In this document: piece after piece, positions 39,723-57,311 of the stretch | Layout of the letters: every line of letters begins with the position of its first letter | Numbering within the stretch: position 1 is the stretch's first letter | Assembly (NCBI RefSeq): GCF_002263495.1 | Contig: NZ_CP022753.1 | Coordinates: 5,394,001 to 5,458,000 of the forward strand | Direction: 5' to 3' | DNA length: 64,000 nt | Origin: Nocardiopsis gilva YIM 90087 | Lineage (GTDB): Bacteria; Actinomycetota; Actinomycetes; Streptosporangiales; Streptosporangiaceae | Notes under the pieces: generated by a model | The model's input: the letters and a program-made list of their open reading frames with translations, nothing else | Databases searched by the model: none | Told to the model about the DNA's origin: nothing | Program-made: the position numbers and the translations under genes

Positions 39723-40143
39723 AAGTACCTCAGGCTAGCGGCCGCGGCCTCATTGCGCAGCGAAAACGTGGATCCCACGGTAACCGTCGCAGCGCCCAAC
39801 AGACCGGACGAACCGCCACACAGGCGACGCATTCGGTAACTTTTTGATAATCCTTCTGCTGTCCCGCGAACCACTCCACACCCCAACGCACACGCATACT
39901 CAGGACGAACGCCCTGGTTAGGACCAAAGTCCCAGCTCGGTACTCCCGTCACCAACCGACTGCATACCGCAACCTCCACGAAAACAGTTGATCTCGGGCG
40001 AGATACGATCCCCTCGCCGACCCCTAGAGCAATGGCTTTTTCACCGGCGCACCCCTGATCCCCGGTGCCGTCGCGCGGTAGATCCCCGACAGACGACGAG
40101 TGTCCCCGGCCCGGTGCGCCCGTCTCCGGGCCATAGGAGAGCA
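39723..40143. other. Gap between VanZ/RDD gene and conservon
   Basis: 421 bases between divergent genes. It contains AT-rich DNA at 39838-39865 (TAACTTTTTGATAATCC) and a short symmetric element GTTGATCTCGGGCGAGAT at 39987-40004, whose ATCTCG-GG-CGAGAT core shares its left end with the long hairpins elsewhere in the window. The conservon promoter should be here. No gene seen. Confidence 0.5.
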
Positions 40144-43427: not shown

Positions 43428-43441
43428 GGCGGAGGTGAGCC

Positions 43442-43813
43442 ATGTCAGATCACAATGAGGAGCACGAGGCGGACTCGGTCGGTCCGCTGGTACGCCCCTA
43501 TGTCATCGCACAGGGGCGGCAGCGCTCCGACACCGTCAAGTTGGACATGGTCAGCGTGGTCATCGCGGCCCGTGCCGAGGTCGACGAGATGTCCCTCGAA
43601 CCCGAGCAGGTGCGGATCCTGGAATTCTGCCGCCGCCCGCAGTCCGTGGCGGAGGTGTCCTCGCACCTGGGCCTTCCGATCGCGGTGACCAAGGTTCTGA
43701 TCGGCGACCTCATCGGCCGGGGCTATGTCCTGGCTCGCGCCCCCTACACAACCGAGAGCCCGGTCAGCCGGGACGTACTCCAGGCGGTACTCGATGGCAT
43801 CCAACGACTCTGA
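43442..43813 (+). CDS. cvnC: DUF742 protein CvnC
   Basis: 123 residues; ATG 43442 behind GGAGG. GPLVRPYVIAQGRQRSDTVK at the N-terminus is the DUF742 signature, followed by PEQVRILEFCRRPQSVAEVS and HLGLPIAVTKVLIGDLIGRG, a winged-helix-like end. It is the third conservon gene, 14 bases after cvnB, and overlaps cvnD by 20 bases, so translation is coupled. Confidence 0.92.
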   Translation: MSDHNEEHEADSVGPLVRPYVIAQGRQRSDTVKLDMVSVVIAARAEVDEMSLEPEQVRILEFCRRPQSVAEVSSHLGLPIAVTKVLIGDLIGRGYVLARAPYTTESPVSRDVLQAVLDGIQRL

Positions 43814-44381
43814 CCGCGCGGCGGAGCACATCCCCTCCGCGATCAAGATCCTCGTCGCAGGCGGTTTCGGAGCCGGTAAGACCACCCTCGTCGGTTCGGT
43901 CAGCGAGGTGACCCCGCTCAACACCGAGGAGGTGATGACCGAGGCGAGCCTCGGCGTGGACGACCTCGCCGGGGTGGAGGCGAAGACCACCACCACGGTC
44001 GCGCTCGACTTCGGCCGGATCACCATCTCCGACCAGCTCGTGCTGTACCTGTTCGGCACCCCGGGCCAGGAGCGCTTCTGGTTCATGTGGGAGGAGCTGG
44101 CGGTCGGCGCGCTGGGGGCGGTGGTCATCGCCGACACCCGGCGGCTGGAGACCTGCTTCGCCGCGGTCGACTTCTTCGAGCGGCGCGGGCTGCCGTTCGT
44201 GGTCGCGGTGAACTGCTTCGAGGGGGCGCACCGCTACGACGTGGACGAGGTCGCCGCCGCGCTCAACATCCCCTCCGGCATTCCCGTTGTCCTGTGCGAC
44301 GTGCGTGAGCGCGAATCGAGCAAGGAGGTCCTGCTGACGCTCGTGCGGCACGTCGCCGAGAGCATGGCCATGCCGGTGTAG
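43794..44381 (+). CDS. cvnD: Conservon GTPase CvnD
   Basis: 195 residues from ATG 43794, inside the end of cvnC; a longer upstream frame is a shadow of cvnC. Small-GTPase features: KILVAGGFGAGKTTLVGSVS (P-loop GxGxGKT, about 18-37), EAKTTTTVALDFGRI (switch I threonine), LFGTPGQERFWFMWEELAVG (switch II, GTPGQE, about 83-102), VVAVNCFEG in place of NKxD, and VVLCDVRE for the SAK-like loop. It is the ATP/GTP-binding component of the conservon, a membrane-associated G-protein-like switch. Two small hairpins follow at 44392-44438. Confidence 0.92.
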   Translation: MASNDSDRAAEHIPSAIKILVAGGFGAGKTTLVGSVSEVTPLNTEEVMTEASLGVDDLAGVEAKTTTTVALDFGRITISDQLVLYLFGTPGQERFWFMWEELAVGALGAVVIADTRRLETCFAAVDFFERRGLPFVVAVNCFEGAHRYDVDEVAAALNIPSGIPVVLCDVRERESSKEVLLTLVRHVAESMAMPV

Positions 44382-44391
44382 GACCTCCCAG

Positions 44392-44438
44392 GTCACACGG
44401 CTCCCTGTGACAACCGGGTTCCACAGGGTCGCACCCGG
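44392..44438 (+). terminator. Probable terminator after the conservon
   Basis: Two stacked hairpins: GTCACA (44392-44397) with TGTGAC (44406-44411), and CCGGGT (44414-44419) with ACCCGG (44433-44438). They start 11 bases after the cvnD stop. Stems are short, so termination may be partial. Confidence 0.4.
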
Positions 44439-44552
44439 CTGGCCGCACCGTTTTCCACCGTCTTACTCTTGCGATGAGTAGGTGGTGGCGTGCACTTTCC
44501 GTGCATTCCACCACCTATCCCCCACAACAACGGCGGAATCGGAAGAGTTCGC

Positions 44553-45506
44553 ATGAAACGGTACGACTGGTACGACGAGATCCACCGGCTGGACGCGGAA
44601 GCCGACTGTCGGCGGATCACCCAGATCCTCGCCTGGCATGAGTTTCCGTGGGACATCACCCAGGCCCTGGGGCTGGCCCTGTACCGCACCTACGCTGTCC
44701 CCAGCATCGGCGGTCTGCTCGACCGCACCCGCGAATTCACCACCCGAACCCAGTACCGCTACGACGACACCGCGCTGCTGCTCGGCGCGATGCTGCACCA
44801 CGGCTTCGAGCCGGGCGAGGGGCGCGACGCGCTGCGTCGGATGAACCAGATGCACCGCTCCTTCGACATCTGCAACGACGACTACCGCTACGTGCTGAGC
44901 ACGTTCGTGGTCATGCCGGTGATCTGGCTCAACGACCTCGGTTACGGGTGGCGCAAGCTGACCGAGCACGAGATCACCGCCGCCACCAACTACTACCGCG
45001 TGCTCGGCAGGCACATGGCGATCAAGGACATCCCGGAGACCTACGCCGAGTTCTACGAGCTCTACGACTCCTACGAGCGGGAGAACTTCGCCTACTCCGA
45101 GGGCGGGCGCGCCGTCTCCGACGCCACCCTCGACCTGATGGTGGACTTCTATCCACCGTGGCAGCGCACGGTCATCCGCCCCTTCAGCATGGCGCTCCTG
45201 GACGACCGCCTGATCCGCGCGTTCGGCTACCCGGCGCCCTCGCGATTCTGGCGCTTCGCCGCCCGCGCGGGGCTGCGGGCCCGGGCGAAGGTCGTCCGGT
45301 TCATGCCGCCGCGCGTGGAGCCCTTCCAGGAGAAGGACAGCCCGAACATCCGCAGCTACCCCCACGGCTACGACGTCAACCGCATCGGCACCTTCCCGCA
45401 GGGGTGCCCGGTCCCCCACGACCTGCTCACCACCGAGGTCCCCGGTACCGACATCCGTGTCCCCGCACCGGGACAGGAACTCGCACCGGAGCAGAAGACG
45501 ACCTGA
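44553..45506 (+). CDS. MpaB/rubber-oxygenase-family (DUF2236-like) protein
   Basis: 317 residues from ATG 44553 (MKRYDWYDEIHRLDAEADCR), with GGAAGAG upstream; the frame opens earlier but without a site. ILAWHEFPWDITQALGLALY, PSIGGLLDRTREFTTRTQYR, YDDTALLLGAMLHHGFEPGE, ALRRMNQMHRSFDICNDDYR, LSTFVVMPVIWLNDLGYGWR and YYRVLGRHMAIKDIPETYAE fit the ER-bound oxygenase MpaB/B'/latex-clearing oxygenase fold, probably haem-binding through a conserved histidine. Actinomycete members are poorly characterised. Upstream at about 44463-44482 TACTC-TTGCGAT-GAGTA gives weak symmetry. A long hairpin closes the gene. Confidence 0.8.
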   Translation: MKRYDWYDEIHRLDAEADCRRITQILAWHEFPWDITQALGLALYRTYAVPSIGGLLDRTREFTTRTQYRYDDTALLLGAMLHHGFEPGEGRDALRRMNQMHRSFDICNDDYRYVLSTFVVMPVIWLNDLGYGWRKLTEHEITAATNYYRVLGRHMAIKDIPETYAEFYELYDSYERENFAYSEGGRAVSDATLDLMVDFYPPWQRTVIRPFSMALLDDRLIRAFGYPAPSRFWRFAARAGLRARAKVVRFMPPRVEPFQEKDSPNIRSYPHGYDVNRIGTFPQGCPVPHDLLTTEVPGTDIRVPAPGQELAPEQKTT

Positions 45507-45515
45507 GTCAGCAAA

Positions 45516-45577
45516 GTTGATCTCGGAGATATTGGGGTCAAAATCGCCCGTGAGACCCCAATATCTCCGAGATCAAC
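45516..45577. terminator. Long perfect hairpin, GTTGATCTCGG family, copy 1
   Basis: Arms of 24 bases (45516-45539 and 45554-45577) pair perfectly; the left arm starts GTTGATCTCGGAGATATTGG and the loop is 14 bases. It lies between two convergent genes and can terminate both. The outer sequence is shared with the hairpins at 46805 and 55833. Confidence 0.85.
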
Positions 45578-45607
45578 GGAGGGACCGGCGAGATCGGTGG
45601 GGAAACG

Positions 45608-46726
45608 TCAGTCGTCCCTGACAACCGTGTTCAGGCGTTCCAGGGTGTCGCCGAACTCCGCCATGAACTCGTAGATGACCTGGGAGGTGGGCTTCACCCG
45701 GTTCAGGCTGCCCACGATCTGACCGACCGGGGACGGCGTGAGCCGGGGATGGCGGATCCGGCCGACCCGGCGCAGCGCGTCGGCGATCAGCATGAACTGC
45801 AGGGGCATGGGCAGTGCCCCGGGTGAGTCCGCGCCCTCCCACGCGTCGGTCCAGTCGTTGCGCAGCATGCGCGCGGGCTTGCCCGTCAGGGACCGCGACC
45901 GGACGGTGTCGCGCGAGGTGGCGCCGAGGATCTGCTCCAGGGATCCGGGCGGGGTGTCGGACTCCTCCGTGGCCAGCCAGACCGAGCCGGTCCACACCCC
46001 CTCGGCCCCCAACGCCATGCCCGCGGCCATCTGCCGACCGCCCCCGATACCGCCCGCCGCGAGCACCGGCGCCGGAGCGACCGCGTCGACGATCTCGGGG
46101 ACCAGCACCATCGTGGCCACGTCTCCGGTGTGCCCGCCGGCCTCGGTGCCCTGGGCGACGATGACGTCGACGCCCACCTCGCGCTGCTTGCGCGCGTGGC
46201 GCACGCTTCCGGCGATCCCGGCGACGGGGACGCCGCAGGCGTTCGCCTGCCCGACCACGTCGGCGGGCGGCGCTCCCAGCGCGTTGGCCAGCAGGCCGAT
46301 GGGGTGGCGCAGCGCGACCTCGACCTGCGGCCGCGCGGTGGCGTCGGTCCATCCGAGCAGGAAGTGCGCGGTGTCCGAGTGCGTGAGCTCAGGAACCCCG
46401 TGCCGGGCGAGCAGGTCGTTGACGAAGTGCCGGTGCTCGTCGGGGATGAACTCCGCCAGCCGGTCCCGCAGCCCCTCGCCATTGGCCGCGGCGAGGTCGG
46501 CCCCCTCGTACATGGCGGGCATGACGACATCGACGCCGTAGGGCCTGCCGCCCACGTGCTCGTCGATCCAGGTGAGTTCGTGTTCCAGTTCCTCGGGCGT
46601 GAAGTAGAGCGCACCGAGCACCCCCATGCCTCCGGCCCTGCTCACAGCGGCGACGACGTCACGGCAGTGGCTGAAGGCGAAGATCGGGAGGTCGATGCCG
46701 AACATCTCGGTCGCACGGGTTCGCAT
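45608..46726 (-). CDS. Nitronate monooxygenase-family flavoprotein
   Basis: 372 residues, TIM-barrel FMN enzyme. MFGIDLPIFAFSHCRDVVAA, VSRAGGMGVLGALYFTPEEL, VDVIVAQGTEAGGHTGDVAT (about 185-205), VLVPEIVDAVAPAPVLAAGG, IGGGRQMAAGMALGAEGVWT are the NPD/NMO signature, including the phosphate-binding GGxxxG. C-terminal residues include LTGKPARMLRNDWTDAWEG. The substrate need not be a nitronate; IpdC-type members reduce sterol ring intermediates. A perfect KstR-like site 22 bases before its ATG supports a link to sterol metabolism, though this subfamily is not IpdC itself. Confidence 0.85.
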   Translation of the reverse strand: MRTRATEMFGIDLPIFAFSHCRDVVAAVSRAGGMGVLGALYFTPEELEHELTWIDEHVGGRPYGVDVVMPAMYEGADLAAANGEGLRDRLAEFIPDEHRHFVNDLLARHGVPELTHSDTAHFLLGWTDATARPQVEVALRHPIGLLANALGAPPADVVGQANACGVPVAGIAGSVRHARKQREVGVDVIVAQGTEAGGHTGDVATMVLVPEIVDAVAPAPVLAAGGIGGGRQMAAGMALGAEGVWTGSVWLATEESDTPPGSLEQILGATSRDTVRSRSLTGKPARMLRNDWTDAWEGADSPGALPMPLQFMLIADALRRVGRIRHPRLTPSPVGQIVGSLNRVKPTSQVIYEFMAEFGDTLERLNTVVRDD

Positions 46727-46747
46727 GCGGTCATGGAAACACGAAAC

Positions 46748-46761
46748 TGAAACACGTTCTA
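46748..46761. promoter_or_regulatory. KstR-like operator before the nitronate monooxygenase-like gene
   Basis: TGAAACACGTTCTA satisfies the KstR pattern TnnAACnnGTTnnA at every fixed position and also keeps the archetypal AACACGTTCTA half. It lies 22-35 bases upstream of the ATG at 46726, where a repressor would cover the promoter. Confidence 0.65.
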
Positions 46762-46804
46762 GACACGCTCCACGAACTGTTTCCCCGAGTGCGCCCCTTC
46801 CCTC

Positions 46805-46866
46805 GTTGATCTCGGTGATATCGACCGAATACTCGCCGGTATTCGGTCGATATCACCGAGATCAAC
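46805..46866. terminator. Long perfect hairpin, GTTGATCTCGG family, copy 2
   Basis: Arms of 28 bases (46805-46832 and 46839-46866) pair perfectly around a 6-base loop. The outer end GTTGATCTCGG is the same as in the other copies, while the inner arm sequence differs and is compensated on both sides. It follows the dprE2 stop by 12 bases on the minus strand and separates it from the next gene. Confidence 0.85.
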
Positions 46867-46878
46867 GGACGAGGAGCG

Positions 46879-47703
46879 TCAGCGGGGCAGCCGTCGCCAC
46901 ACCGGCCGCGGCAGCACGCGCAGACCGGCGAACAGCAGCTGCAGCTTGCGCGGGACCCAGACGACGCAGGACCCCTTGCGCAGACCTTCGGCGACCGCCT
47001 CGGCGACCTGGCGGGCCGTCGCCGGGAAGGGCGCGGATGAGACGTGGGCGGACATGCGCGTGGGCACGTAGCCGGGCCGGACGATCATCACGCGGGCGCC
47101 GGTGCCGTGCAGGGAGTCGCCGAGCCCCTGGGCGAAGCCGTCCAGACCCGCCTTGGCCGCGCCGTAGACGAAGTTGGCGCGGCGCACCCGCACGCCGGCC
47201 ACCGAGGAGATGACCACGAAGGTCCCGTGTCCCTGCTCCTTGAGCCGGGCGGCCACGGCGATGCCGGCGGAGACGTGCCCGGTGAAGTTGGCCGTGGCGG
47301 CGTCGGCGGCGGCCACCGGGTCGGTGTCGAAGACGGCCTGCTCGCCGAGGACGCCGAAGGCGTCGATGACGGCGTCAAGGTCGCCGACGAGCTTCACGGC
47401 CTCGGCGACCGCGTCGGCGTGGGTGTCGGGACGGGCGGCGTCGAAGTCGATCGTGTGGACCGCGGAGGCGCCCAGGGAGAGCAGCCGTTCGGCGGCCTTC
47501 TTTTCGATGCCCTGGCTCTCCGGCCCCCCGTCCTCCTCGATGTCCGCGGCACCGTGCTCGCCCTCCTCGCTCGGGGCGGGCCGGGCCGCCAGCACGACCT
47601 TGCGGGCGCCGTCGCGGACCAGGCGTTCCACGATGGTCAGCCCGATCTCGCTCCGGCCGCCCAGGAGGAGGACCGTGTCCACCGTCCCCACCGCGTTCCG
47701 CAT
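46879..47703 (-). CDS. dprE2: Decaprenylphosphoryl-2-keto-ribose reductase DprE2
   Basis: 274 residues; ATG 47703 follows GAGGAGGAG. VDTVLLLGGRSEIGLTIVER is the NAD(P) loop of short-chain dehydrogenases in the DprE2 form (LLLGGxSEIG). Also IDFDA at about 90, DAVIDAFGVLGEQAV, TFVVISSVAGVRVRRANFVY (catalytic Ser), VYGAAKAGLDGFAQGLGDSL (Tyr-x3-Lys) and VRPGYVPTRMSAHVSSAPFP. Compared with mycobacterial DprE2 there is an acidic insert (EEGEHGAADIEEDGG, about 45-65). With DprE1 it epimerises decaprenylphosphoryl-ribose to the arabinose donor. It is separated from dprE1 by about 8 kb here, whereas in mycobacteria they adjoin. Confidence 0.88.
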   Translation of the reverse strand: MRNAVGTVDTVLLLGGRSEIGLTIVERLVRDGARKVVLAARPAPSEEGEHGAADIEEDGGPESQGIEKKAAERLLSLGASAVHTIDFDAARPDTHADAVAEAVKLVGDLDAVIDAFGVLGEQAVFDTDPVAAADAATANFTGHVSAGIAVAARLKEQGHGTFVVISSVAGVRVRRANFVYGAAKAGLDGFAQGLGDSLHGTGARVMIVRPGYVPTRMSAHVSSAPFPATARQVAEAVAEGLRKGSCVVWVPRKLQLLFAGLRVLPRPVWRRLPR

Positions 47704-47785
47704 GCGCTCCTCCTCGTCCGGGATCTTGGACGTAGCTTCCCAAACCGCGCGGGCCGGGGGAAGAGTCGGCCGCGAAAACCGCGTG

Positions 47786-48349
47786 TCAGCGACGGCCGTG
47801 GCGCACCTTGACCGAGCCGTACGTGATGTGGCCGCTGATCCGGACGTGAAGCGCTCCCGGCTCGGCGCGCTCCGGGACGCGGGAGCGGACGGCGCCGTAG
47901 TCGCTTGTGAGTCCGTCGAGATCGGCCGAGGCGCCGCGCGGGAGGGTGATCAGCACGCTCCCGCTTCGCATCGAGACTTCGATGTCGACCACCGGGTGGG
48001 GGATGGTGGCCTCGGTCAGGTCCAGACGCACCGATCCGGCCTCGGAGCTGACCTTGAGGCGGCGTGGGACGACCCAGTCACCTTTGCGCCTGATCACTCC
48101 GCTGCGCTGGCGCAGTTCGACGGTCTCGGGGCGAGCGGGGACCACGTCGAGCGCGCCGGGCAGGTCGTGCAGCAGCGCCCGCAGCTCGTCGTCGAATGTG
48201 GACTGGTAGGCGGCGGTGGAACGGTCGTTGAACTCGTCGAGGGTGAGGCGCCCATCGGCGTAGGCCTGGCTGATGTGGCGCACGACCTGTTCCCGCTCGG
48301 CGTCGGAGACACGTTGGCGGGGCGAGGGCGATCCGGGCAGCGACTCCAT
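47786..48349 (-). CDS. DUF1707 protein with LiaF-like C-terminal domain
   Basis: 187 residues from ATG 48349. The N-terminus RQRVSDAEREQVVRHISQAY, ADGRLTLDEFNDRSTAAYQS is the DUF1707 (SHOCT-like) helical motif. The C-terminal half is beta-rich, with VSMRSGSVLITLPRGASADL and ALHVRISGHITYGSVKVRHG, like the LiaF/cell-wall-stress response domain; no membrane segment lies between. Such proteins are probably membrane-stress modulators. The frame continues upstream to 48466 without a ribosome site. Confidence 0.8.
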   Translation of the reverse strand: MESLPGSPSPRQRVSDAEREQVVRHISQAYADGRLTLDEFNDRSTAAYQSTFDDELRALLHDLPGALDVVPARPETVELRQRSGVIRRKGDWVVPRRLKVSSEAGSVRLDLTEATIPHPVVDIEVSMRSGSVLITLPRGASADLDGLTSDYGAVRSRVPERAEPGALHVRISGHITYGSVKVRHGRR

Positions 48350-48514
48350 GCAGGCAGCGTATCCAGGGCGCGCTGGCGCGTTGATGCAATTGCTTATGAG
48401 CAATCCCGAAGTCCGCTCACGGGAGGACTGGGGGCGCTTACTCCGGGTAGGGGGTGGACGGCGCATCTATATCCCGCGGAATAAGGTGACACAACCGAAT
48501 AGCAGGAGGCCTTC

Positions 48515-48880
48515 GTGGTCGGATTCGCTGTCGTCTGCTTGACCGGTGCCGCACTGACCGCGGCCGTCCTGATTGTCGTCCGCACGAGGCGGCGTCGGGG
48601 CGGTTCCACCCCCGTGGTCCTCCCCCGCAGGACCGAGGCCGAGAGCGGAGACGAGGCCTGGTACCACGTCCACCGGGCGTTCGCTCCGTGTTCCTCCTGG
48701 ATGGCCGGGATCATCGTGGTCACCGCCCTGCTCGCGGGCACGGTCCCCGTGGAGGTGCTGGAACTGTCCGTCCTGCTGATCCTGACGGGATCGGTCGCCG
48801 TCACGTTCATCTGGAGCGTGATGGCCCCGCGCAGCCCGCTCCACCGCCGCCCCTATGAGTACGAGGACCACTGGGACTGA
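48515..48880 (+). CDS. Small membrane protein, 121 residues
   Basis: GTG 48515 behind AGGAGG. VVGFAVVCLTGAALTAAVLI is an N-terminal membrane segment, followed by a basic loop (RTRRRRGGS), a cytosolic or external middle (DEAWYHVHRAFAPCSSWMAG) and two further hydrophobic segments (IIVVTALLAGTVPVEVLELS; VLLILTGSVAVTFIWSVMAP). No family recognised. It is divergent from the DUF1707 gene and convergent with the response regulator. Confidence 0.65.
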   Translation: MVGFAVVCLTGAALTAAVLIVVRTRRRRGGSTPVVLPRRTEAESGDEAWYHVHRAFAPCSSWMAGIIVVTALLAGTVPVEVLELSVLLILTGSVAVTFIWSVMAPRSPLHRRPYEYEDHWD

Positions 48881-48965
48881 CGCCGCGGCCGACCGCGCTC
48901 CCTGACCGGTGTCCTGAACTTCCGGGGTCTCACCCCCGACGCGGGCCGCGCAGGCGGTGGCCGAC

Positions 48966-49661
48966 TCAGGCCCGCGGCGGGCCGATCCAGTGGAAGCGGC
49001 GCTCGGGGCGCCCGGCGGTGCCGTAGCGCAGCCGCACCTCGGCCTTGCCTTCCTGGACGAAGAACTCCAGGTAGCGGCGGGCGCTCACGCGCGCCAGTCC
49101 GGTGAGCTCGGCGCACTCCGATGCCGACACCTCGCCCGCGCGGCTCAGTTCCCGCTCGACGAGCCGGGCCGACTCCGGTGTGAGCCCCTTGGGCATGTCC
49201 CGGGCGCTCGATTCGGTGGCGCTGGGCACCGACCGCCCGAAGACGCGGTCCACATCGGTCTGGCGCGGGGCGCCGCCGTCCGCGAGGATCCGGCGCGTCT
49301 CCTGGTAGCGCAGCAGCCGGTCGCGCAGGGTCTCGGCGTCGAAGGGCTTGATCACGTAACTCACCGCGCCGCCCTGCAGTGCCTGGCGCACCGTCGCGGC
49401 ATCCCGCGCCGCCGTGATGATCAGGGCGTCCACCTCCGGGCCGCCGCCCGCGCGCAGCCGCCGCAGGACCTCGGTACCGGGCATGTCGGGGAGGTAGATG
49501 TCCAGCAGCAGCAGGTCGGGGCGGAGCTCCGCGGTGAGGTCCAGCGCCTCGGCGGCGGTGCGCGCCTCGCCCACCACGGTGAACCCCGGGACCCGTTCCA
49601 CGAGCTTGCGGTGGACCTGGGCGACCATGAAGTCGTCATCGACGACCAGCACCCGGATCAC
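48966..49661 (-). CDS. CitB/DctR-type response regulator
   Basis: 231 residues from GTG 49661, overlapping the sensor stop by 4 bases. Receiver domain (1-120): IRVLVVDDDFMVAQVHRKLV with the acidic pair, LLLLDIYLPDMPGTEVLRRL with the phospho-acceptor aspartate, ALIITAARDAATVRQALQGG and YVIKPFDAETLRDRLLRYQE. The C-terminal helix-turn-helix (about 170-220) is KGLTPESARLVERELSRAGE, VSASECAELTGLARVSARRY. This architecture belongs to the CitB/DcuR/TctD-like regulators of organic-acid uptake. The divergent tctCBA genes are the expected targets. Confidence 0.9.
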   Translation of the reverse strand: MIRVLVVDDDFMVAQVHRKLVERVPGFTVVGEARTAAEALDLTAELRPDLLLLDIYLPDMPGTEVLRRLRAGGGPEVDALIITAARDAATVRQALQGGAVSYVIKPFDAETLRDRLLRYQETRRILADGGAPRQTDVDRVFGRSVPSATESSARDMPKGLTPESARLVERELSRAGEVSASECAELTGLARVSARRYLEFFVQEGKAEVRLRYGTAGRPERRFHWIGPPRA

Positions 49662-51400
49662 GGTCGGCTCCCTTCCTCTCCAACGTCGGCCGCTGTGTCC
49701 CCCGCCCCGTAGGGCAGGCGGGCGGTGAACTCCGAGCCCGTCACGTCGACGCCGCCGCCCCGGCGAGCGCACACGAGTCGGACCAGTGCGAGCCCGACGC
49801 CGCGCCCGGAGGCGCGTCCGGGGACGGCCCCGCTGTGCGCCGACTCGTGGTCGCGCGGGCCTTTGGTGCTGAACCCGGTGCGGAACACCTGCTCGGCCAG
49901 CTCCGTGGGCACACCCGCACCTGAGTCGCGCACCCGGACCCGCACGGCGTTCGCCGACGCCGCGGACGCCGTCTCGGCAGAGGCGCCGTCCCCTTCATCC
50001 TCATCGACGTCCACCACCTCCTCGGCGCCCTCGGCCTCCTCGGTCAGCTCCACCTCGACCCACGACCCATCGTCGCCCCTGATGGCGTCCAGAGCGTTGT
50101 CGACGAGGTTGCCGACGACCGTGACCAGGTCGGACGACAGGCCTTCGTCATGGAGGCCGAGGTCGGTCGCGTCCGAAACAAGCAGCCTGCTGCCCTGCTC
50201 GGCGGCGAGGCTCGCCTTGGCGATGAGCAGCGCGGCCACCGAGGGGTCGACGACCCGCGATGCCACATCCTCGGTCAGCCGGGCCCGCGCCCCGCCGATC
50301 CGGTTCACGTACCGCCCGACCTCCTCATACTCCTCCAGCTCCAGCAGCCCGGCGATGACGTGCAGCCGGTTGCTGAACTCGTGCGCCTGGGCGCGCAGTG
50401 CCTCGGTGGAGGTGCGGCTCGCGTCGAGTTCGTGCCGCAGCGCGACCAGGGCGGTGCGGTCGCGCATCGTGGTGACCGAGCCGATGGGACGGTCCCGGTA
50501 GTACAGCGGCATGCGGTTGAGGGTGACCAGGCGGTTGTTCATCAGCACCACCCGGTCGGGCTCCTGGACCCGGTCGGTGAACGCGTCGACCAGGTCGGGG
50601 GCGACGCCCAGGTCCGCCAGGCGGCGGCCCTCCGCATTCGGCGGAAGACGCAGCAGCTCGGCCGCGGTGTCGTTGACCAGCGTGACCCGGTCCTCCGCGT
50701 CGAGACCGAGCACGCCCTCCTTGATTCCGCGCAGCATGGCCTCGCGGTGTTCGGCCAGGCGGGTGATCTCCCCGGGTTCCAGGCCCAGGGTCTGGCGCTT
50801 GACCCGGCGTGCGAGCAACAGGGAGCCCGCGACGCCCAGGACCGAGGCGATGCCGAGGTAGACCAGCAGCGTGGGCGCGGCGGTGGCGAGCCGCTCGATC
50901 GGGCCGGGGTAGTCGCGTCCGGCCGCGACGAAGCCGAGGATGTCGCCGTCCTTCCCGATCACGGGGACGTGGGCGGCCAGTACCTGCCGTCCGCCGATGT
51001 CGGTGACCCCGGTCCAGGAGCGCCCGTCGAGGACGTCGCTGTCCCCCATGTCGATCTCCCGCCCGATGCGGCGCGGGTCGACGGCGGTCAGGGCGCGCCG
51101 GTCGGAACGCGCCACGACGAGGTGGTCGGCACCGGCGAGGCTGCGCACGCCCTCGGCCGTGGGCTGCAGTATGCCCTCGCGGCGCTGGTCCCGGAGCCCG
51201 ACGCGCACCGTGTCCATCGAGGCCGCCGTCTCCGCGACGGCCTGCATGCGACGCCCCTCGGTCCGCCGGAAGCCCGCGTCGGCCTGGGCCAGTGACACGC
51301 CCGCGACCGCGAACAGCACGACCACGACGATCACCAGCTGCAGGGCGAGGAACTGACCGGCCAGGGTCGGCCGCGCCAGTCGGGCCAGCGGTGGACGCAC
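49658..51400 (-). CDS. CitA/DcuS-type sensor histidine kinase
   Basis: 580 residues from GTG 51400 with GGGGGAG before it. Membrane segments at about 15-40 (LALQLVIVVVVLFAVAGVSL) and about 175-198 flank an extracytoplasmic sensor (about 45-172: TVRVGLRDQRREGILQPTAE; GRQVLAAHVPVIGKDGDILG), the PAS-like CitA fold. A cytosolic PAS domain (HREAMLRGIKEGVLGLDAED) and a SpoOB/CitA dimerisation helix with RAQAHEFSNRLHVIAGLLEL (His in HEFSNRLH) follow, then a HATPase domain: NLVDNALDAI, VRVRDSGAGVP, GRGVGLALVRLVCARRGGGV. An acidic insert (TEEAEGAEEVVDVDEDEGDG) sits within the ATPase domain. The ligand is probably a tricarboxylate. Confidence 0.9.
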   Translation of the reverse strand: MRPPLARLARPTLAGQFLALQLVIVVVVLFAVAGVSLAQADAGFRRTEGRRMQAVAETAASMDTVRVGLRDQRREGILQPTAEGVRSLAGADHLVVARSDRRALTAVDPRRIGREIDMGDSDVLDGRSWTGVTDIGGRQVLAAHVPVIGKDGDILGFVAAGRDYPGPIERLATAAPTLLVYLGIASVLGVAGSLLLARRVKRQTLGLEPGEITRLAEHREAMLRGIKEGVLGLDAEDRVTLVNDTAAELLRLPPNAEGRRLADLGVAPDLVDAFTDRVQEPDRVVLMNNRLVTLNRMPLYYRDRPIGSVTTMRDRTALVALRHELDASRTSTEALRAQAHEFSNRLHVIAGLLELEEYEEVGRYVNRIGGARARLTEDVASRVVDPSVAALLIAKASLAAEQGSRLLVSDATDLGLHDEGLSSDLVTVVGNLVDNALDAIRGDDGSWVEVELTEEAEGAEEVVDVDEDEGDGASAETASAASANAVRVRVRDSGAGVPTELAEQVFRTGFSTKGPRDHESAHSGAVPGRASGRGVGLALVRLVCARRGGGVDVTGSEFTARLPYGAGDTAADVGEEGSRP

Positions 51401-51631
51401 CGGGGCTCCCCCTCTCGGCCGAAGCGGTGATGATGCGTCATCGTCGCACGTGGTCGGTGTGCGGGACGGCGGCAGGGGTCGTGACCACTACGACCGAAAC
51501 GTCCACTACCACCAATGCCCGCATAACCGACATAACGCTTTTCGCCCCCGTTGCCCGCTGTTTTCATGTGCGTTACGTCACGTCGGCCCAGCCGGCGGAA
51601 TCCCCCGTACCCCCTGTTCACGGAGGCGCAC

Positions 51632-52705
51632 ATGTTCCGCGCACGTCCCGCCGCCCCATCCACCGCGGCCACGCCCACCTCTGCCGCGAGCCGAGCCGCG
51701 GCCGGTGCCGCCGCCTGCGTCGGCCTCGCGCTCGTGGCCACCGCCTGCGGCTCCGGCGGCGGGCAGAACGCCGACGGCCCCTGGGCCCCGACCCGCCCGA
51801 TCGAGATCGTCGCACCGGCGGCCACCGGCGGTGGATGGGACACGCTGGCCCGCACCAGCTCCCGCGTCCTGGAGGAGGAAGGCCTGGTCGACAAGCCGAT
51901 CCAGGTGGTGAACAAGCCCGGCGGCGGGGGCGCCATCGGCTGGGCCTATGTGGCCGCCACGCCGGACGACCCGCACCGGCTGTTCGTGACGAGCCCGCCC
52001 ATGACGCTCGTGCCGCTCACCGACGACTCCACCTACGACCACGAGGACTTCACCCCGATCGCGCGGCTGAGCACCGGCTACATGGCCTACCTGGTTCCGG
52101 CCGACTCCCCGTTGAAAACCTTCGACGACCTCGTCGAGGCGATGCGCGAGGACCCCGGCGAGATCTCGGTGGCCGGCGGCTCCTCACCGGGCAGCATGGA
52201 CCACGTCGCCCTGGCCGGAGCCGTCGACGCCGCGGGCCTCGACCCGAAGGACCTCAACTACGTGCCCTTCGACGGCGGCGGCGAGGCGCTGGCCCAGGCC
52301 CTCGGCGGCCACGTGGACGCGGCCGTGACCGGCGCCTCCGAGGCGACCGGACTGGTGGAATCGGGCGACCTGCGGGCGCTGGCGGTCTCGTCGCCGGAGC
52401 GGGTGGAGACCCTGCCCGACGTCCCCACGCTCACAGAGGAAGGCGTCGACTACACGTTCGACATCTGGCGCGGCGTGATGGGTCCCGGCGGCATGACCGA
52501 CGACCAGGTCGCCTACTACGAGAAGGCGTTCGCGGACATGGCCGAGAAGGACAGCTGGAAGACCGAGACCCGCAAGCTGGGGTGGGTCGACTCCTACATG
52601 GGCAGTGAGGACTTCGGCGCGTTCCTCGACCAGAGCCGTGCGGAGTCCGCCCAGATCCTGAGCGAGGTCGGGCTGCGCAAGGACGAGGGCGGGACCCAGT
52701 CATGA
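51632..52705 (+). CDS. tctC: Tripartite tricarboxylate transporter binding protein TctC
   Basis: 357 residues from ATG 51632 (GGAGG upstream). Lipoprotein signal ending LVATACGSGGG. TctC features: RPIEIVAPAATGGGWDTLAR, VVNKPGGGGAIGWAYVAATP, PIARLSTGYMAYLVPADSPL, EISVAGGSSPGSMDHVALAG and GHVDAAVTGASEATGLVESG. It captures the organic acid outside the membrane and delivers it to TctB/TctA. It overlaps tctB (ATGA). The two-component genes are divergent, 231 bases upstream; that gap contains GATGA-TGCG-TCATC symmetry near 51428. Confidence 0.9.
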   Translation: MFRARPAAPSTAATPTSAASRAAAGAAACVGLALVATACGSGGGQNADGPWAPTRPIEIVAPAATGGGWDTLARTSSRVLEEEGLVDKPIQVVNKPGGGGAIGWAYVAATPDDPHRLFVTSPPMTLVPLTDDSTYDHEDFTPIARLSTGYMAYLVPADSPLKTFDDLVEAMREDPGEISVAGGSSPGSMDHVALAGAVDAAGLDPKDLNYVPFDGGGEALAQALGGHVDAAVTGASEATGLVESGDLRALAVSSPERVETLPDVPTLTEEGVDYTFDIWRGVMGPGGMTDDQVAYYEKAFADMAEKDSWKTETRKLGWVDSYMGSEDFGAFLDQSRAESAQILSEVGLRKDEGGTQS

Positions 52706-53232
52706 CGCCCTTCCGCTTCTCCAACCGCGCGGTGGCGGTGGTGGTCGGCCTGATCGCCGCGGGCTACCTGGCGCTCGCCTTCCAGCTGCCGGACTTCACC
52801 GCCGTGAGCGTCCCGGTCCAGCCCGCGACGCTGCCCCGCTGGCTCGGGGTGTTCCTGCTCGTCCTGGCCGCTCTGCTCTTCTTCCAGCGCACACCTCCCG
52901 AGGAGGACGGCGGACCCGGCGGGACCGCCGCGCCGACAGCCTCCGGCACGGACACGACGGGGCCCGAAGGGGGCACCCGCCTGGGCCGCCTCGCCGACAG
53001 CCGGCTCGAACTCGCCCTCTTCGCGTCCTCGATCGCCGTCTACATCGCGCTGCTCGAACCGGTCGGGTTCCTCATCTCCACGACCGTCTACATCGCCGCC
53101 GTGACCGCCTACCTGGGCTACCGCCGCCACTGGGTGACGGGGCTGGTGAGCGTCGGCGTCGCGGCCGGGCTGTACTTCCTCATGTCCGACTTCCTCAACG
53201 TGGCGCTGCCCGCCGGGCCGCTTCCGTTCTGA
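52702..53232 (+). CDS. tctB: Tripartite tricarboxylate transporter small membrane subunit TctB
   Basis: 176 residues with four predicted membrane segments: AVAVVVGLIAAGYLALAFQL, WLGVFLLVLAALLFFQ, LALFASSIAVYIALLEPVGF and TTVYIAAVTAYLGYRRHWVT plus a last one near the end. A Gly/Thr/Pro-rich loop (EEDGGPGGTAAPTASGTDTT) separates the halves. Size, topology and position between tctC and tctA identify it, since TctB sequences are weakly conserved. Confidence 0.85.
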   Translation: MTPFRFSNRAVAVVVGLIAAGYLALAFQLPDFTAVSVPVQPATLPRWLGVFLLVLAALLFFQRTPPEEDGGPGGTAAPTASGTDTTGPEGGTRLGRLADSRLELALFASSIAVYIALLEPVGFLISTTVYIAAVTAYLGYRRHWVTGLVSVGVAAGLYFLMSDFLNVALPAGPLPF

Positions 53233-53257
53233 TCCCCTCCTGACCCGCGGAGCCACC

Positions 53258-54823
53258 ATGGAAATGCTCAGTCACATCGGCTACGGGTTCGGGATCGCGT
53301 TCGCCCCGGAGAGCCTGCTGTTCGTCCTGATCGGCGTGCTCGCCGGGACGATCATCGGCATCCTGCCCGGCCTCGGCCCGATGAGCGCGATCGCGCTGAT
53401 GATCCCGATCGCCTTCGGCATGGACCCGACCACGGCCATCATCATGCTCGCGGGCGTCTACTACGGCGCCATCTTCGGCGGGTCCACCTCGTCGATCCTG
53501 CTGAACGCGCCCGGCGTGGCCGGAACGGTCGCGACCTCGTTCGACGGCTACCCGATGGCGCGCCAAGGCAAGGCGGGCAAGGCCCTGGCCATCGCCGCCA
53601 TCGCCTCCTTCGTCGGCGGCACGGTCGGCGTCGTGCTGCTCATGCTGATCGCCCCGACGCTCGCGAAGTTCGCGGTCAGCTTCGGCCCGGCCGAGTACTT
53701 CGCGCTCATGGCCCTCGGCCTCACCGCCGTGGTGTCCCTGGGCGGGAAGAACCTGGTCAAGGGGCTCATCGCCGCGGTGATCGGGGTGATGATCTCGCTG
53801 ATCGGGATCGACTCCCAGACCTCCACGCCGCGTTTCACCTTCGACCTGCCGGAGCTGTACGAGGGCGTCGAGTTCCTCATCGTTGCCCTGGGTGTGTTCG
53901 CGTTGGCCGAGGTCTTCGCGCTGCTGGCCCGACGCGGGCTCGGCGGCGCCGACGGCACCGTGTCGTCGCTGCGGCTCAGCCGGTCCGACGTCAAGGCCAT
54001 GGCCCCGGCCACGGGGCGCGGTTCCCTGCTGGGTTTCTTCACCGGCGTGCTGCCCGGCGCCGGGGCGACGGTGGCGTCGTTCCTCGCCTACTCCTCGGAG
54101 AAGCGCATCGCCAAGGACGGCCACACGTTCGGAACCGGGAACGTGAAGGGCGTCGCCGCCCCCGAGTCCGCCAACAACGCGGCGGCCGTGGGCTCCTTCG
54201 TCCCGCTGCTCACCCTGGGTGTACCGGGTTCGGGCACCACCGCGATCCTGCTCGGCGCGCTGCTGGTGCTCGGCGTACAGCCCGGCCCGCTGATGCTGAC
54301 CGACCGCCCCGACGTGTTCTGGGGAGTGGTGGCCAGCATGTACGTGGGCAACATCGTGCTGCTGGTCCTCAACCTGCCGCTCATCCCGGTCTTCGCGAAA
54401 GTCCTCAAGACGCCCAAGGCGGTGCTGTTGCCCCTGGTCGTCGTGTTCTGCGTGGTCGGCGTGTACGGTTTGAGCTTCAGCGTGTTCGACCTGTGGCTGC
54501 TGCTCGGCTTCGGGGTCGTGGGGTACCTGATGCGGCAGAACGGCTTCCCCGCGGCACCGCTGATCCTCGGGCTGATCCTGGGCGGCATGATGGAGCGCTC
54601 GATGCGCCAGGCGCTGCAGATCTCCTCGGGCGACTGGTCCACGTTCGTGACGTCGCCGGTGTCGGGCGTCCTGCTGGGCCTGGCCGTGCTGGCGGTCGCG
54701 GGTCCGCTGATCGCGCGAACGCGGCGCGGGCGCGGCACCGCGGAAACGGCGCCCCCTGCCCCGGTCTCCGCGAGCGACGACGGCGGGCACGACGCGGACG
54801 CCGACGCCGTTCGCGGACGGTAG
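53258..54823 (+). CDS. tctA: Tripartite tricarboxylate transporter large membrane subunit TctA
   Basis: 521 residues. Strong TctA motifs: GTIIGILPGLGPMSAIALMI (about 32-51), GVYYGAIFGGSTSSILLNAP (about 68-87), FDGYPMARQGKAGKALAIAA, GFFTGVLPGAGATVASFLAY (about 260-280), FVPLLTLGVPGSGTTAILLG and VVASMYVGNIVLLVLNLPLI. About 11-12 membrane segments. The C-terminus is a short acidic tail. It is 25 bases after tctB and 16 bases before the second binding-protein gene. Confidence 0.93.
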   Translation: MEMLSHIGYGFGIAFAPESLLFVLIGVLAGTIIGILPGLGPMSAIALMIPIAFGMDPTTAIIMLAGVYYGAIFGGSTSSILLNAPGVAGTVATSFDGYPMARQGKAGKALAIAAIASFVGGTVGVVLLMLIAPTLAKFAVSFGPAEYFALMALGLTAVVSLGGKNLVKGLIAAVIGVMISLIGIDSQTSTPRFTFDLPELYEGVEFLIVALGVFALAEVFALLARRGLGGADGTVSSLRLSRSDVKAMAPATGRGSLLGFFTGVLPGAGATVASFLAYSSEKRIAKDGHTFGTGNVKGVAAPESANNAAAVGSFVPLLTLGVPGSGTTAILLGALLVLGVQPGPLMLTDRPDVFWGVVASMYVGNIVLLVLNLPLIPVFAKVLKTPKAVLLPLVVVFCVVGVYGLSFSVFDLWLLLGFGVVGYLMRQNGFPAAPLILGLILGGMMERSMRQALQISSGDWSTFVTSPVSGVLLGLAVLAVAGPLIARTRRGRGTAETAPPAPVSASDDGGHDADADAVRGR

Positions 54824-54839
54824 GGAGGTCGACCGAGCG

Positions 54840-55820
54840 ATGTGGACAGGGCGCCGGTGCCTGACCGCCGTGACCGCTCCGCTGGCGCTAGTGCTGGCGG
54901 CGGCGGTGGTCGGCTGCGCACCGGCGCCCGCCGTACCCGAGCTGCGGATCATGGTCCCCAACCCGCCCGGCGGGGGCTATGACACCACCGCGCGGACGGT
55001 GGCGGCCGCTCTGGAGGAAACCGGGCTGGCCGGAGAGACCGGGGTGTTCAACGTCCCCGGATCGGCCGGGACGACGGGACTGCACCGGCTCCTCTACGAG
55101 GAGGGCAACGAGCAGCTGCTGCTGCAGATGGGCATGGGGCTGGTCGCCCGCACGCACATCAACGACGAGACCCCGGTCACCGCCGCCACGCCGCTGGCCC
55201 GGCTGGTGGAGGAGCCGATGGTCATCCTGGTCCCGCCCGACTCTCCCTACCGGACCTTCGACGACCTCGCCGAGGACTGGCGCGACCCCGGCGTCCGGCT
55301 CACCCTGGGCGGCGGGTCCAGCCCCGGCGGGCCTGACCACCTCCCGCTGATGCTTCTGGCCGAGGAGATCGGGGTGGACCCCGGCAAGGTCGACTACGCG
55401 TGGCACGACGGCGGCGGGGAGACGCTCGCCGCCCTGCTCCAGCACGACGTCGACGCCGCGGCGGCGGGGGCGGGCGAGTACCGGCAGGCCATCGCCGCCG
55501 GGCAGCTGCGGGTTCTGGCGGTCAGCGGGCCGGAGCGCACCGGAGGCATCGACGCGCCGACCCTCCGCGAGCTCGGATTCGACCTGGTGTTCATGAACTG
55601 GCGGGGCCTGCTCGCCCCGCCCGGCATCAGCGAGCGCGAGCGCGACGCGCTCATCGCCGTCCTCGACGACCTGCACGCCACCCCGGAGTGGCGGTCCGCG
55701 CTCAACGAGGCGCACTGGACGGACGCCTACCTCACCGGCGACGACTTCGGCGCGTTTCTGGCGGCCGAGGACCGCGACGTCGGCGATGTCCTGGGCAGGC
55801 TCGGCCTCGCCGACCGGTGA
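54840..55820 (+). CDS. Second TctC-type substrate-binding lipoprotein
   Basis: 326 residues. Signal ending AAVVGCAPAPA (lipobox). PELRIMVPNPPGGGYDTTAR, GVFNVPGSAGTTGLHRLLYE, ARLVEEPMVILVPPDSPYRT, TLGGGSSPGGPDHLPLMLLA and HDVDAAAAGAGEYRQAIAAG follow the TctC pattern closely, yet the protein is clearly diverged from the first one. A second receptor in the same operon may widen the substrate range or feed the same TctBA pair at a different affinity. The gene ends at a long hairpin. Confidence 0.88.
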   Translation: MWTGRRCLTAVTAPLALVLAAAVVGCAPAPAVPELRIMVPNPPGGGYDTTARTVAAALEETGLAGETGVFNVPGSAGTTGLHRLLYEEGNEQLLLQMGMGLVARTHINDETPVTAATPLARLVEEPMVILVPPDSPYRTFDDLAEDWRDPGVRLTLGGGSSPGGPDHLPLMLLAEEIGVDPGKVDYAWHDGGGETLAALLQHDVDAAAAGAGEYRQAIAAGQLRVLAVSGPERTGGIDAPTLRELGFDLVFMNWRGLLAPPGISERERDALIAVLDDLHATPEWRSALNEAHWTDAYLTGDDFGAFLAAEDRDVGDVLGRLGLADR

Positions 55821-55832
55821 CGCGCTTCCCCT

Positions 55833-55894
55833 GTTGATCTCGGAGATATTGGGATAAAAATCAACGCTGAGACCCCAATATCTCCGAGATCAAC
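55833..55894. terminator. Long hairpin, GTTGATCTCGG family, copy 3
   Basis: Arms of 21 bases (55833-55853 and 55874-55894) pair perfectly; left arm begins GTTGATCTCGGAGATATTGG as in copy 1. Just inside, one base differs from copy 1 (A for G at 55854) and breaks a pair. It sits between the convergent second TctC-type gene and dprE1. Confidence 0.85.
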
Positions 55895-55910
55895 GGGGGA
55901 AGCGGCAGCG

Positions 55911-57311
55911 TCACAGCTCCAACCTGCGCGACAGGTCGGAGACGAGGACGCCACGCGGGTCGACGCGGTCGCGGACCGCACGCCACTCGTCGAGGCGCGG
56001 GTACATCGCGTGCACGACGGGCGCCTCGGCCCGGCTGTCCTTGGCCAGGTAGATGCGTCCGCCCGCGGCGAGGACCTGCTCATCGCAGCCGCGCAGCAGG
56101 CGGGCGAGGCCGGGGAGCTCGGCGGGCAGGTCGAGGGCCAGGGTCCAGCCGGGCATCGGGAAGGACAGCGGCGCGGGGGTGCCCGGACCGAAGCGTTTGA
56201 GCACCGTGAGGAAGGACGGCGCACCGGCCGACGCCAGCCGCTCGGCGATCCGGCGCAGGGTGTCCTCCTCGCCGAACGGCACGACGAACTGGTACTGCAC
56301 CAGGCCGTGCGGCCCGTACATGCGGTTCCAGCCGCGCACGGCGTCCAGGGGGTGGAAGAACGACCCGAGTCCCTGGATCTCGGCGCGACCGCGCCGGGGC
56401 GCGCGGGCGTAGTAGGCGGTGTTGAACGCCCGTACGCTCCACGCGTTGAGCAGCCGCGGCGGCACCCAGGGCGGTGCCCCGGCCACCGTTCGCGGGGTGT
56501 AGCGCAGGGGGTCGCGGCGCCAGCGGGAGGGCAGGTCGCCGATGCGGGCGTGGTGGGCGCGGGTGAGCACGCCGCGGCCCATGGAGGCGCCGCGGGCCAG
56601 CAGGTCGAGCCAGCAGACGGTGTAGTGGTACCGGTCGTCGGACTCGCTCATCAGCGCGAGCGCGGCGTCCAGGTCCGGCGTGCGGTCGGTGTCGACCCGC
56701 GCAGCGGACGTCTCCACCCGGATGACATCGAACGTCGCCTCGGTGATGATCCCGGTCAGGCCCATGCCGCCCACCGTCGCCCAGAACAGCTCCGGGTCCT
56801 TCGCCGGGCCGATGACGCGCTCGGCGCCGTCGGGGGTGACGAGGGTCAGGGACCGCACGTGCGCGCCGAAAGAGGAGTCCACGTGGTGGTTCTTGCCGTG
56901 GATGTCGGCGCCGATCGCACCGCCCACGGTGATGTGCCGCGTTCCGGGGGTCACCGGCACGAAGTAGCCGTGCGGCAGCAGGTACTCCATGAGGTCGGCG
57001 AGGCTGGTCCCGGCCGACGCGGTCACGGTGCCCGCCCCCGGGTCCAACCGCAGGCACGGGGCGAGGTCGGCGCACTCGATCACCAGGCCCCCGGCGCTCT
57101 GCGCGGCGTCGCCGTAGCTACGGCCCAGGCCACGCGCGATCGCTCCGCGTCCCGCCGCCTCGGCGGCGCCCGACGCGTCGTCCCCGTTCGCCACACCCTC
57201 GGCTCCCGCTCCACGGAGGAGCAGCGCCACGTCTTCGGCGGTGCGCGGACGGGCGACCGTCGCGAGGGTGGGGGCCGTGCGTCCCCACCCGCTGAGAAGG
57301 CGCCGGTTCAC
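55911..57311 (-). CDS. dprE1: Decaprenylphosphoryl-ribose oxidase DprE1
   Basis: 466 residues from GTG 57311, overlapping the ubiA stop by 4 bases. FAD-binding (p-cresol methylhydroxylase/VAO fold): ARPRTAEDVALLLRG, RGLGRSYGDAAQSAGGLVIE, VTPGTRHITVGGAIGADIHG, KNHHVDSSFGAHVRSLTLVT and FWATVGGMGLTGIITEATFD. In the C-terminal half, VCWLDLLARG, GRGVLTRAHHA, YGPHGLVQYQFVVPFGEEDT and LDEWRAVRDRVDPRGVLVSD correspond to DprE1. The benzothiazinone-target cysteine of mycobacterial DprE1 lies in the segment equivalent to LVQYQFVVPFG, where I see Y-Q-F-V-V and no cysteine. It oxidises decaprenylphosphoryl-ribose to the keto sugar. Confidence 0.9.
   Translation of the reverse strand: MNRRLLSGWGRTAPTLATVARPRTAEDVALLLRGAGAEGVANGDDASGAAEAAGRGAIARGLGRSYGDAAQSAGGLVIECADLAPCLRLDPGAGTVTASAGTSLADLMEYLLPHGYFVPVTPGTRHITVGGAIGADIHGKNHHVDSSFGAHVRSLTLVTPDGAERVIGPAKDPELFWATVGGMGLTGIITEATFDVIRVETSAARVDTDRTPDLDAALALMSESDDRYHYTVCWLDLLARGASMGRGVLTRAHHARIGDLPSRWRRDPLRYTPRTVAGAPPWVPPRLLNAWSVRAFNTAYYARAPRRGRAEIQGLGSFFHPLDAVRGWNRMYGPHGLVQYQFVVPFGEEDTLRRIAERLASAGAPSFLTVLKRFGPGTPAPLSFPMPGWTLALDLPAELPGLARLLRGCDEQVLAAGGRIYLAKDSRAEAPVVHAMYPRLDEWRAVRDRVDPRGVLVSDLSRRLEL

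Follow-up and report, generated by a model that had tools for sequence, protein, structure and literature searches.

Three hairpins in a 64,000-nucleotide stretch of the Nocardiopsis gilva YIM 90087 genome (contig NZ_CP022753.1, positions 5,394,001 to 5,458,000; hereafter the window) belong to a dispersed family of 62-bp palindromes. These hairpins are probably copies of a non-autonomous mobile palindrome that is served by a trans-acting enzyme and that the host either tolerates at bidirectional transcript ends or employs as such ends. The reading is drawn from the fixed length, the conserved ends, the dispersal as an exact unit, the patchy distribution, and an element size that leaves no room for a gene. 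The palindromes have a high copy number and a near-fixed length, their arms covary, identical units lie within unrelated flanks, orthologous sites differ in presence and absence, and the copies are sited at gene ends.

Results

Copy number, length and inner structure

A de novo hairpin search of the whole 64 kb (score of at least 16, loop of at most 20) returned copies 1, 2 and 3 (Table 1) as its sole results, each 62 bp long and each located where a first-pass annotation of the sequence had placed a hairpin. The outer sequence that the annotation reported as common to all three was likewise recovered: the end word GTTGATCTCGG occurs seven times in the window versus 0.03 expected from shuffles, and six of the seven occurrences build the three pairs. 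As delimited by the hairpin finder, the stem measures 24 bp in copy 1, 29 bp in copy 2 (counting one flanking pair), and 31 bp with one mismatch in copy 3 (counting the flanking CGCTTCCCC and GGGGAAGCG). Copies 1 and 3 had been thought to differ by one substitution; this was wrong, as six positions differ, at 22 and 24 in the stem of copy 1 and at 31, 32, 34 and 35 in the loop.

The window's genome (G000, a single contig of 6,142,152 bp) was searched with the pattern GTTGATCTCGG-N39..41-CCGAGATCAAC, in which both 11-base ends are intact. There were 143 family copies genome-wide, far more than a handful, versus 0 for a control pattern read backwards. A sample of 74 copies, consisting of 71 distinct copies among the matches listed (all below 2.98 Mb) and the window's three, was used for the analyses below. 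When spacers of 5-150 were allowed in these stretches, which had been picked for holding copies, 72 of the 74 measured 62 bp and two measured 61 bp; 148 of the 151 end words sat in pairs of 61-62 bp. The length of 62 bp was also found in 27/28 copies of the congener G001, 13/14 of G009 with L012, 10/10 of G120 with L009, and all 18 full elements measured in G126.

By our own grouping, the inner arms of the 62-mers form subfamilies A (GAGATATTGGGG), B (GGGATATCGACC), and C/D (GGAAAGTGCGCC and GCGACGTGCACC). Arm covariation was examined in 113 copies, drawn from four genomes (72 + 27 + 13 + 1; three 61-bp copies were excluded and a 68-bp copy of G001 lay outside the pattern). Watson-Crick pairs exceeded the number expected under independence at all of positions 12-24 (95 versus 46 at position 12 and 112 versus 56 at position 21, for instance), while the 11-base ends are invariant because the copies were chosen by them. 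The centre is a near-constant YCGSC, and the element therefore has an orientation. Palindromes undergo hairpin-templated repair, and such repair could explain why the two arms vary in concert, as could selection at the RNA level or founders that were already perfect. The whole element folds with a mean of -26.6 kcal/mol, and its 31-nt halves with -1.72 versus -1.77 for shuffles (89 distinct halves). The left flank is pyrimidine-rich and the right flank purine-rich, tandem copies included, so that the stem often runs imperfectly past 62 bp; among the 74 copies, the flanks paired in 62 versus 50 expected under independence at position 2, 51 versus 36 at position 3, and 37 versus 26 at position 6.

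Siting and downstream sequence

The annotation had placed the three hairpins at gene ends, and the neighbouring stop codons are indeed close. The + gene stops 9 bp before copy 1 and the - gene 30 bp after it; the nearest stop is 12 bp from copy 2, and the two convergent stops are 12 and 16 bp from copy 3. The relation extends to the genome sample. According to our own codon-usage gene caller, 44 of the 74 copies are in convergent spacers, 25 in tandem spacers, 2 in divergent spacers, and 3 inside a called gene. The background was formed by spacers of at least 80 bp from the same stretches, themselves chosen for holding copies; relative to it, the copies favoured convergent spacers (44/71 versus 12/134, Fisher p = 1.3e-15) and avoided divergent ones (2/71 versus 47/134, Fisher p = 2.7e-8). 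The tandem copies lie a median of 25 bp from the upstream stop versus 102 bp from the downstream start, and in six cases the TGA of an element end is the called stop codon.

A strong hairpin closely after stop codons, as in an I-shaped terminator, is thus what these gene ends present. In the 12 sense-strand bases past the hairpin, a T-run of at least four was found in 0 of 113 windows, and 60% of the bases were G; these palindromes are therefore not canonical intrinsic terminators. The stretch from stop to hairpin contained 52% C and 22% G (84 gene ends); where gene ends lacked a copy, the C/G values were 40/36 (28 convergent ends) and 39/34 (86 tandem ends). A Rho-type C-rich leader was considered and rejected: the same C-left/G-right skew appears on both sides of tandem copies, and it is therefore a property of the surroundings of the element that does not speak for Rho.

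Orthologous sites in a congener

G001 carries 83 family copies. Some match in G001 was found for 61 of the 74 sampled copies, and 42 were comparable on both sides; the 13 with no match and the 19 with one orthologous side only were dropped. Among the 42 orthologous spacers, 16 held a family-type hairpin (one of them, L141, is borderline, with 18 pairs and 16/22 end bases), 7 another strong hairpin (score of at least 12), and 19 neither by the script thresholds. On inspection by eye, at least four of these 19 turned out to retain traces of an element: a diverged homologue at L131, and remnants at L110 (its second copy), L116 and L117. As a control, 22 other G001 gene-end spacers no shorter than 62 bp, mostly tandem ones, were taken from the same stretches; one of them held a family hairpin (Fisher p = 0.003).

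The inner-arm subfamily differed at 11 of the 16 shared slots, including that of window copy 2, and was the same at 5, including that of copy 3. Copy 1 is absent from the orthologous spacer, the site of copy 2 is occupied by a 62-bp hairpin of subfamily A, and that of copy 3 by the same subfamily in the same orientation. The slots are common to the two genomes and their contents are unlike; insertions may have occurred independently at favoured spots, old tandem doublets may have lost different members, or copies may have converted one another. At L012:7095-7300 in Nocardiopsis suaedae, two tandem elements lie past a nitronate monooxygenase gene, each after the same CCGCCTGGCGGACCCCC, and a pair of this kind could possibly lead to subfamily switching by differential loss. 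Three near-alike copies with the same immediate flanks were also noticed in a repeated region of G001 (L291:1003 and 6394, L292:1004; G001:C1 413-430 kb), those at L291:1003 and 6394 falling inside a called 7.5-kb ORF.

Identical copies, empty spacers and the search for an enzyme

In G126, one identical 62-mer makes up 9 of 19 full copies, with flanks that show no relation past the first base on either side, and all 19 copies are bordered C|...|G (L236, taken for a copy, has no full match). Identical copies in scattered places indicate recent spread. The joined flanks of 18 copies were searched against 60 congeners and 30 loci were examined. Element-free spacers were obtained for six copies: L254 in three genomes, L247 in seven, L237 in five, and L246, L243 and L240 in one each; G186 holds a diverged 62-mer at the site of L237. 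No target duplication of k = 3-12 was found beyond chance in the 74 G000 and 19 G126 copies, with at most one match (k = 4) per set. Seven stretches (L286-L292) were searched for a longer, autonomous element bounded by lone ends, and none was seen; most of the lone ends there belonged to copies of which the other end had mutated or diverged, the partner arm being visible alongside.

Genes of the Y1 tyrosine transposase family (PF01797) were found in G000 (2), G001 (1), N. halophila (1) and N. endophytica (1). The match in G009 is partial, covering 30 of 121 model positions at 23.3 bits versus a cut-off of 23, and N. potens has no match, although it is a many-contig draft in which absence is no proof. 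None of the five full Y1 loci examined (about 3.3 kb each) contains a 62-bp element.

62-bp palindromes in other genomes

In G009, taken to be N. suaedae, there are 50 copies, which keep these ends but differ in their arms. N. potens has 52 palindromes whose ends read GATGATCTTGAC. When the spacer could vary from 30 to 50, the 50 matches listed comprised 47 of 62 bp and 3 of 61 bp. A pattern covering 58 bp of a 62-bp palindrome in Actinomadura, with the ends GTTGACTTGCGGC, gave forward matches in G125 (31), G126 (69), G124 (4) and G132 (1), and 0 in six other genomes searched. In N. potens, Actinomadura and others, the palindromes start with GWTGAY and end with RTCAWC, usually bordered C|...|G; the ends observed, those of the window's family included, are GTTGAT, GATGAT or GTTGAC. 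When palindromes of the form G[AT]TGA...TCA[AT]C were sought at lengths of 44-83 in 80 named loci, five of seven matches were at 62. The 62 bp can be described as two 31-bp halves, and the window's family is probably one lineage of a wider class that shares the length, GWTGAY...RTCAWC and usually C|...|G, and not the interior.

The pattern GWTGAY-N50-RTCAWC was counted in 297 genomes of the same GTDB family: 19 had at least 10 matches (up to 364, the family's top count, in G272) and 278 had 0-7, with 0-3 for the reversed control. Among the 19 carriers, g1 contributes both of its genomes, g9 all six that were sampled, g37 (taken to be Actinomadura) eight, and g2, g42 and g52 one each. A count over 394 genomes of the class included 353 from outside the family, of which two reached 10 matches (39 in G463 and 21 in G424). 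G078 in this survey gave 10 reversed-pattern matches and 0 forward ones, so that counts near 10 may come from other repeats. For 21 further copies in G228, G042 and N. potens, the neighbouring genes were oriented ++ in 8, +- in 7, -- in 3 and -+ in 1, with 1 copy in a called gene and 1 open-sided; C before and G after were present in 17/21. These 21 rows are not all independent, because L293 and L294 carry the same element and the same flanks in reverse, from a duplicated region.

Features of the window and related repeats

The five genes that flank the window hairpins (Table 1) look like ordinary metabolic or transport genes. Rfam at gathering threshold gave 0 matches in window positions 39000-57000. 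The short palindrome that the annotation had related to the hairpins does exist as a solitary end word outside any pair, but it is not at a gene end, lying about 140-157 bp ahead of a called gene start at 40144; it is possibly an internally deleted relic. The gene downstream of it has NIT and HATPase domains.

Table 1. Positions in the window of the 62-bp palindromes, the solitary end and the neighbouring genes
Feature	Position	Strand	Remark
Copy 1, 62-bp palindrome	45516..45577	.	Subfamily A; convergent spacer
Copy 2, 62-bp palindrome	46805..46866	.	Subfamily B; 12 bp past the stop of the - gene 46879-47703
Copy 3, 62-bp palindrome	55833..55894	.	Subfamily A; convergent spacer
Copy 3 plus complementary flanks CGCTTCCCC / GGGGAAGCG, stem lengthened	55823..55904	.	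Hairpin finder
Solitary end GTTGATCTCGGGCGAGAT	39987..40004	+	Outside any 62-bp pair
MpaB/rubber-oxygenase catalytic domain (PF09995) gene	44553..45506	+	Upstream of copy 1
Nitronate monooxygenase (PF03060) gene	45608..46726	-	Convergent on copy 1
Short-chain dehydrogenase (PF00106) gene	46879..47703	-	Ends at copy 2
TctC-type substrate-binding protein (PF03401) gene	54891..55820	+	Ends at copy 3
FAD-binding oxidoreductase (PF01565, PF04030) gene	55911..57311	-	Convergent on copy 3

Several related repeats were observed. A second dispersed family in G000, GATGATCATGG...CCATGATCATC, has 12 copies, all 60 bp with spacers of 34-44 allowed (for example G000:C1:1693352-1693411), and 3 copies in G001. 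Many of its copies have an asymmetric core holding AAAACGGACA; similar cores, AAACGGACA, were found in 62-bp elements of G042. At L124:2152-2853 and L135:2056-2691, copies of the 62-bp family are nested in long inverted repeats (arms of about 50-77 nt, about 600-700 bp in total) that include a 60-bp GATGATCATGG hairpin as well, and akin long repeats are near L130, L144, L146, L152, L154 and L157. An outer motif near ACTGACGTTTCACCACCG lies about 10-35 bp outside the hairpins, on either side, at L095, L124, L129, L142, L144 and L154, and at window positions 45596-45612.

Discussion

Repetitive extragenic palindromic (REP) elements are the nearest known kind, and the tests of tag, half-hairpin and transposase linkage fail here. 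REP doublets forming hairpins (REPINs) are symmetric and disperse as a unit, in which our palindromes resemble them, but no linkage of the 62-mers to a REP-associated tyrosine transposase (RAYT) was found, and their middle is palindromic and near-constant in length. REPINs are the subject of PMC3116915, and RAYTs that of PMC2817692. The REP account in PMC3733652 describes units of 20-40 bp in the GTAG and CGTC superfamilies, whose 4-nt tag is unpaired and whose stems measure 5-13 bp, and no associated transposase gene for CGTC elements. Measured against this account, the likeness is that of short extragenic palindromes present in tens to hundreds of copies, with subfamilies, in convergent spacers or past 3' ends; the difference is that the 62-mer is one palindrome with no GTAG or CGTC tag, is unfolded as a half, and keeps its length across unrelated sequences (PMC3733652). 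PMC5217627 reports about 1300 uptake words in Haemophilus influenzae, with terminators formed from inverted pairs. Repeated short words, inverted pairs and gene-end hairpins are common to that system and ours, whereas here 148 of 151 sampled end words lie in pairs of 61-62 bp. A DNA-uptake word was accordingly rejected, given how seldom the end word stands alone (one of seven in the window). The U-tract-less, I-shaped terminators of GC-rich bacteria, as outlined in PMC8914203 (citing Mitra et al. 2009), also place a strong stem at the transcript end without a U-rich tail; however, they are defined by structure and do not make up a fixed-length sequence family.

Other explanations were weighed against a mobile palindrome. 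A purely host origin, with a strong bidirectional terminator spread by recombination and kept by selection without mobility machinery, would suit the gene-end siting and the pairing preserved in diverged copies, such as the G001 orthologues of L102 and L149. The other hairpins in 7 of 42 G001 slots look as if those ends needed one, a count that has no control for the frequency of gene-end hairpins. Yet a terminator needs neither conserved ends nor 62 bp in unrelated sequences, identical 62-mers lie within unrelated flanks, the U-tract is absent and the downstream sequence G-rich, and 19 of the 42 slots have no strong hairpin; we consider this origin unlikely. The suggestion of the annotation that the hairpins are REP-like elements spread by a RAYT is supported as to a dispersed, lineage-specific and gene-end-enriched family, but not as to the agent. 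Two head-to-head REPs with tags at their outer ends, moved by a Y1 transposase, would agree with extragenic, high-copy palindromes that lie near 3' ends and prefer convergent spacers, as REPs do (PMC3733652). Moreover, the outer GWTG can be read, in our view, as tag-like, and PF01797 genes are present in four of the genomes named above. Against this, N. potens has 52 copies in a draft without a Y1 match, G009 has 50 copies and only the short partial match, the five Y1 loci lack the element, the 31-nt halves fold no better than shuffles, and a GTAG or CGTC tag is absent from the ends. RAYT is left unsupported by the first and third of these points, and movement by it appears quite improbable.

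A miniature inverted-repeat transposable element (MITE) of a classical DDE insertion sequence, reduced to its two terminal inverted repeats joined end to end, might account for conserved ends, a variable middle and dispersed copies. It is nonetheless very doubtful given the lack of target duplications of 3-12 bp beyond chance, the lone ends that mostly adjoin a mutated or diverged partner arm, and the failure to find a longer element in the seven stretches examined; moreover, different insertion sequences would hardly give rise to unrelated palindromes that all measure 62 bp. We give hardly any weight to a protein-binding palindrome spread by selection for chromosome organisation or regulation. 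The conserved ends and near-constant YCGSC are in keeping with it, and a fixed length suits a symmetric complex; however, the copies are sited at gene ends rather than at promoters, the sequences of relatives are unrelated, and copies are absent at orthologous sites.

Several results also weigh against the mobile palindrome that we prefer. The absence of a copy does not by itself distinguish gain from loss; a base-exact empty site was not obtained, the nearest relative's spacer being 84% identical with extra indels; and a mobilising enzyme was not found. As for a role at transcript ends, the lack of a U-tract and the G-rich sequence past the hairpin argue against canonical intrinsic termination, the stem mismatches of tandem copies of known direction show no clear RNA wobble bias (6 G.U, 4 A.C and 19 other, the mismatches being few), and many gene ends can do without the hairpin, because 19 of the 42 G001 slots lack a strong one by the script thresholds. 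Selection against insertion elsewhere can also yield gene-end siting.

If the palindrome is mobile, a trans-acting enzyme may recognise the element ends or the folded 62-nt single strand, and copies would be pasted in without target duplication, those at gene 3' ends being the ones that survive. The palindrome would give the same strong hairpin to transcripts arriving from either side, and it may in this way mark or end both convergent transcripts, by Rho-assisted or U-tract-independent termination or by shielding from 3' exonucleases. Siting and palindromy suit such a bidirectional role, as judged from sequence.

More tentatively, and with somewhat less than even confidence, the palindromes may form a mobile class found mainly in one GTDB actinomycete family, in which the sequence is completely replaced between genera and 62 bp and C|GWTGAY...RTCAWC|G are kept. 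The machinery, as yet undescribed, would gauge either the 62-nt hairpin or its two 31-bp halves. It could also swap one subfamily for another at a gene-end slot, in which case a parasite would continually refurnish the transcript ends of the genome. In the open literature we found no description of a class of 62-bp palindromes in these genera; most subscription papers were not covered.

In sum, dispersed palindromes are well known in proteobacteria, and here a class is set by its exact length, lies in actinomycetes, and showed no linkage to a RAYT. The constancy of the length offers a physical hint as to the putative enzyme. The elements also provide a natural experiment on transcript ends, since the orthologous ends of two species may match in subfamily or differ in it, and one may have an ordinary hairpin, a remnant or no hairpin where the other has a copy.

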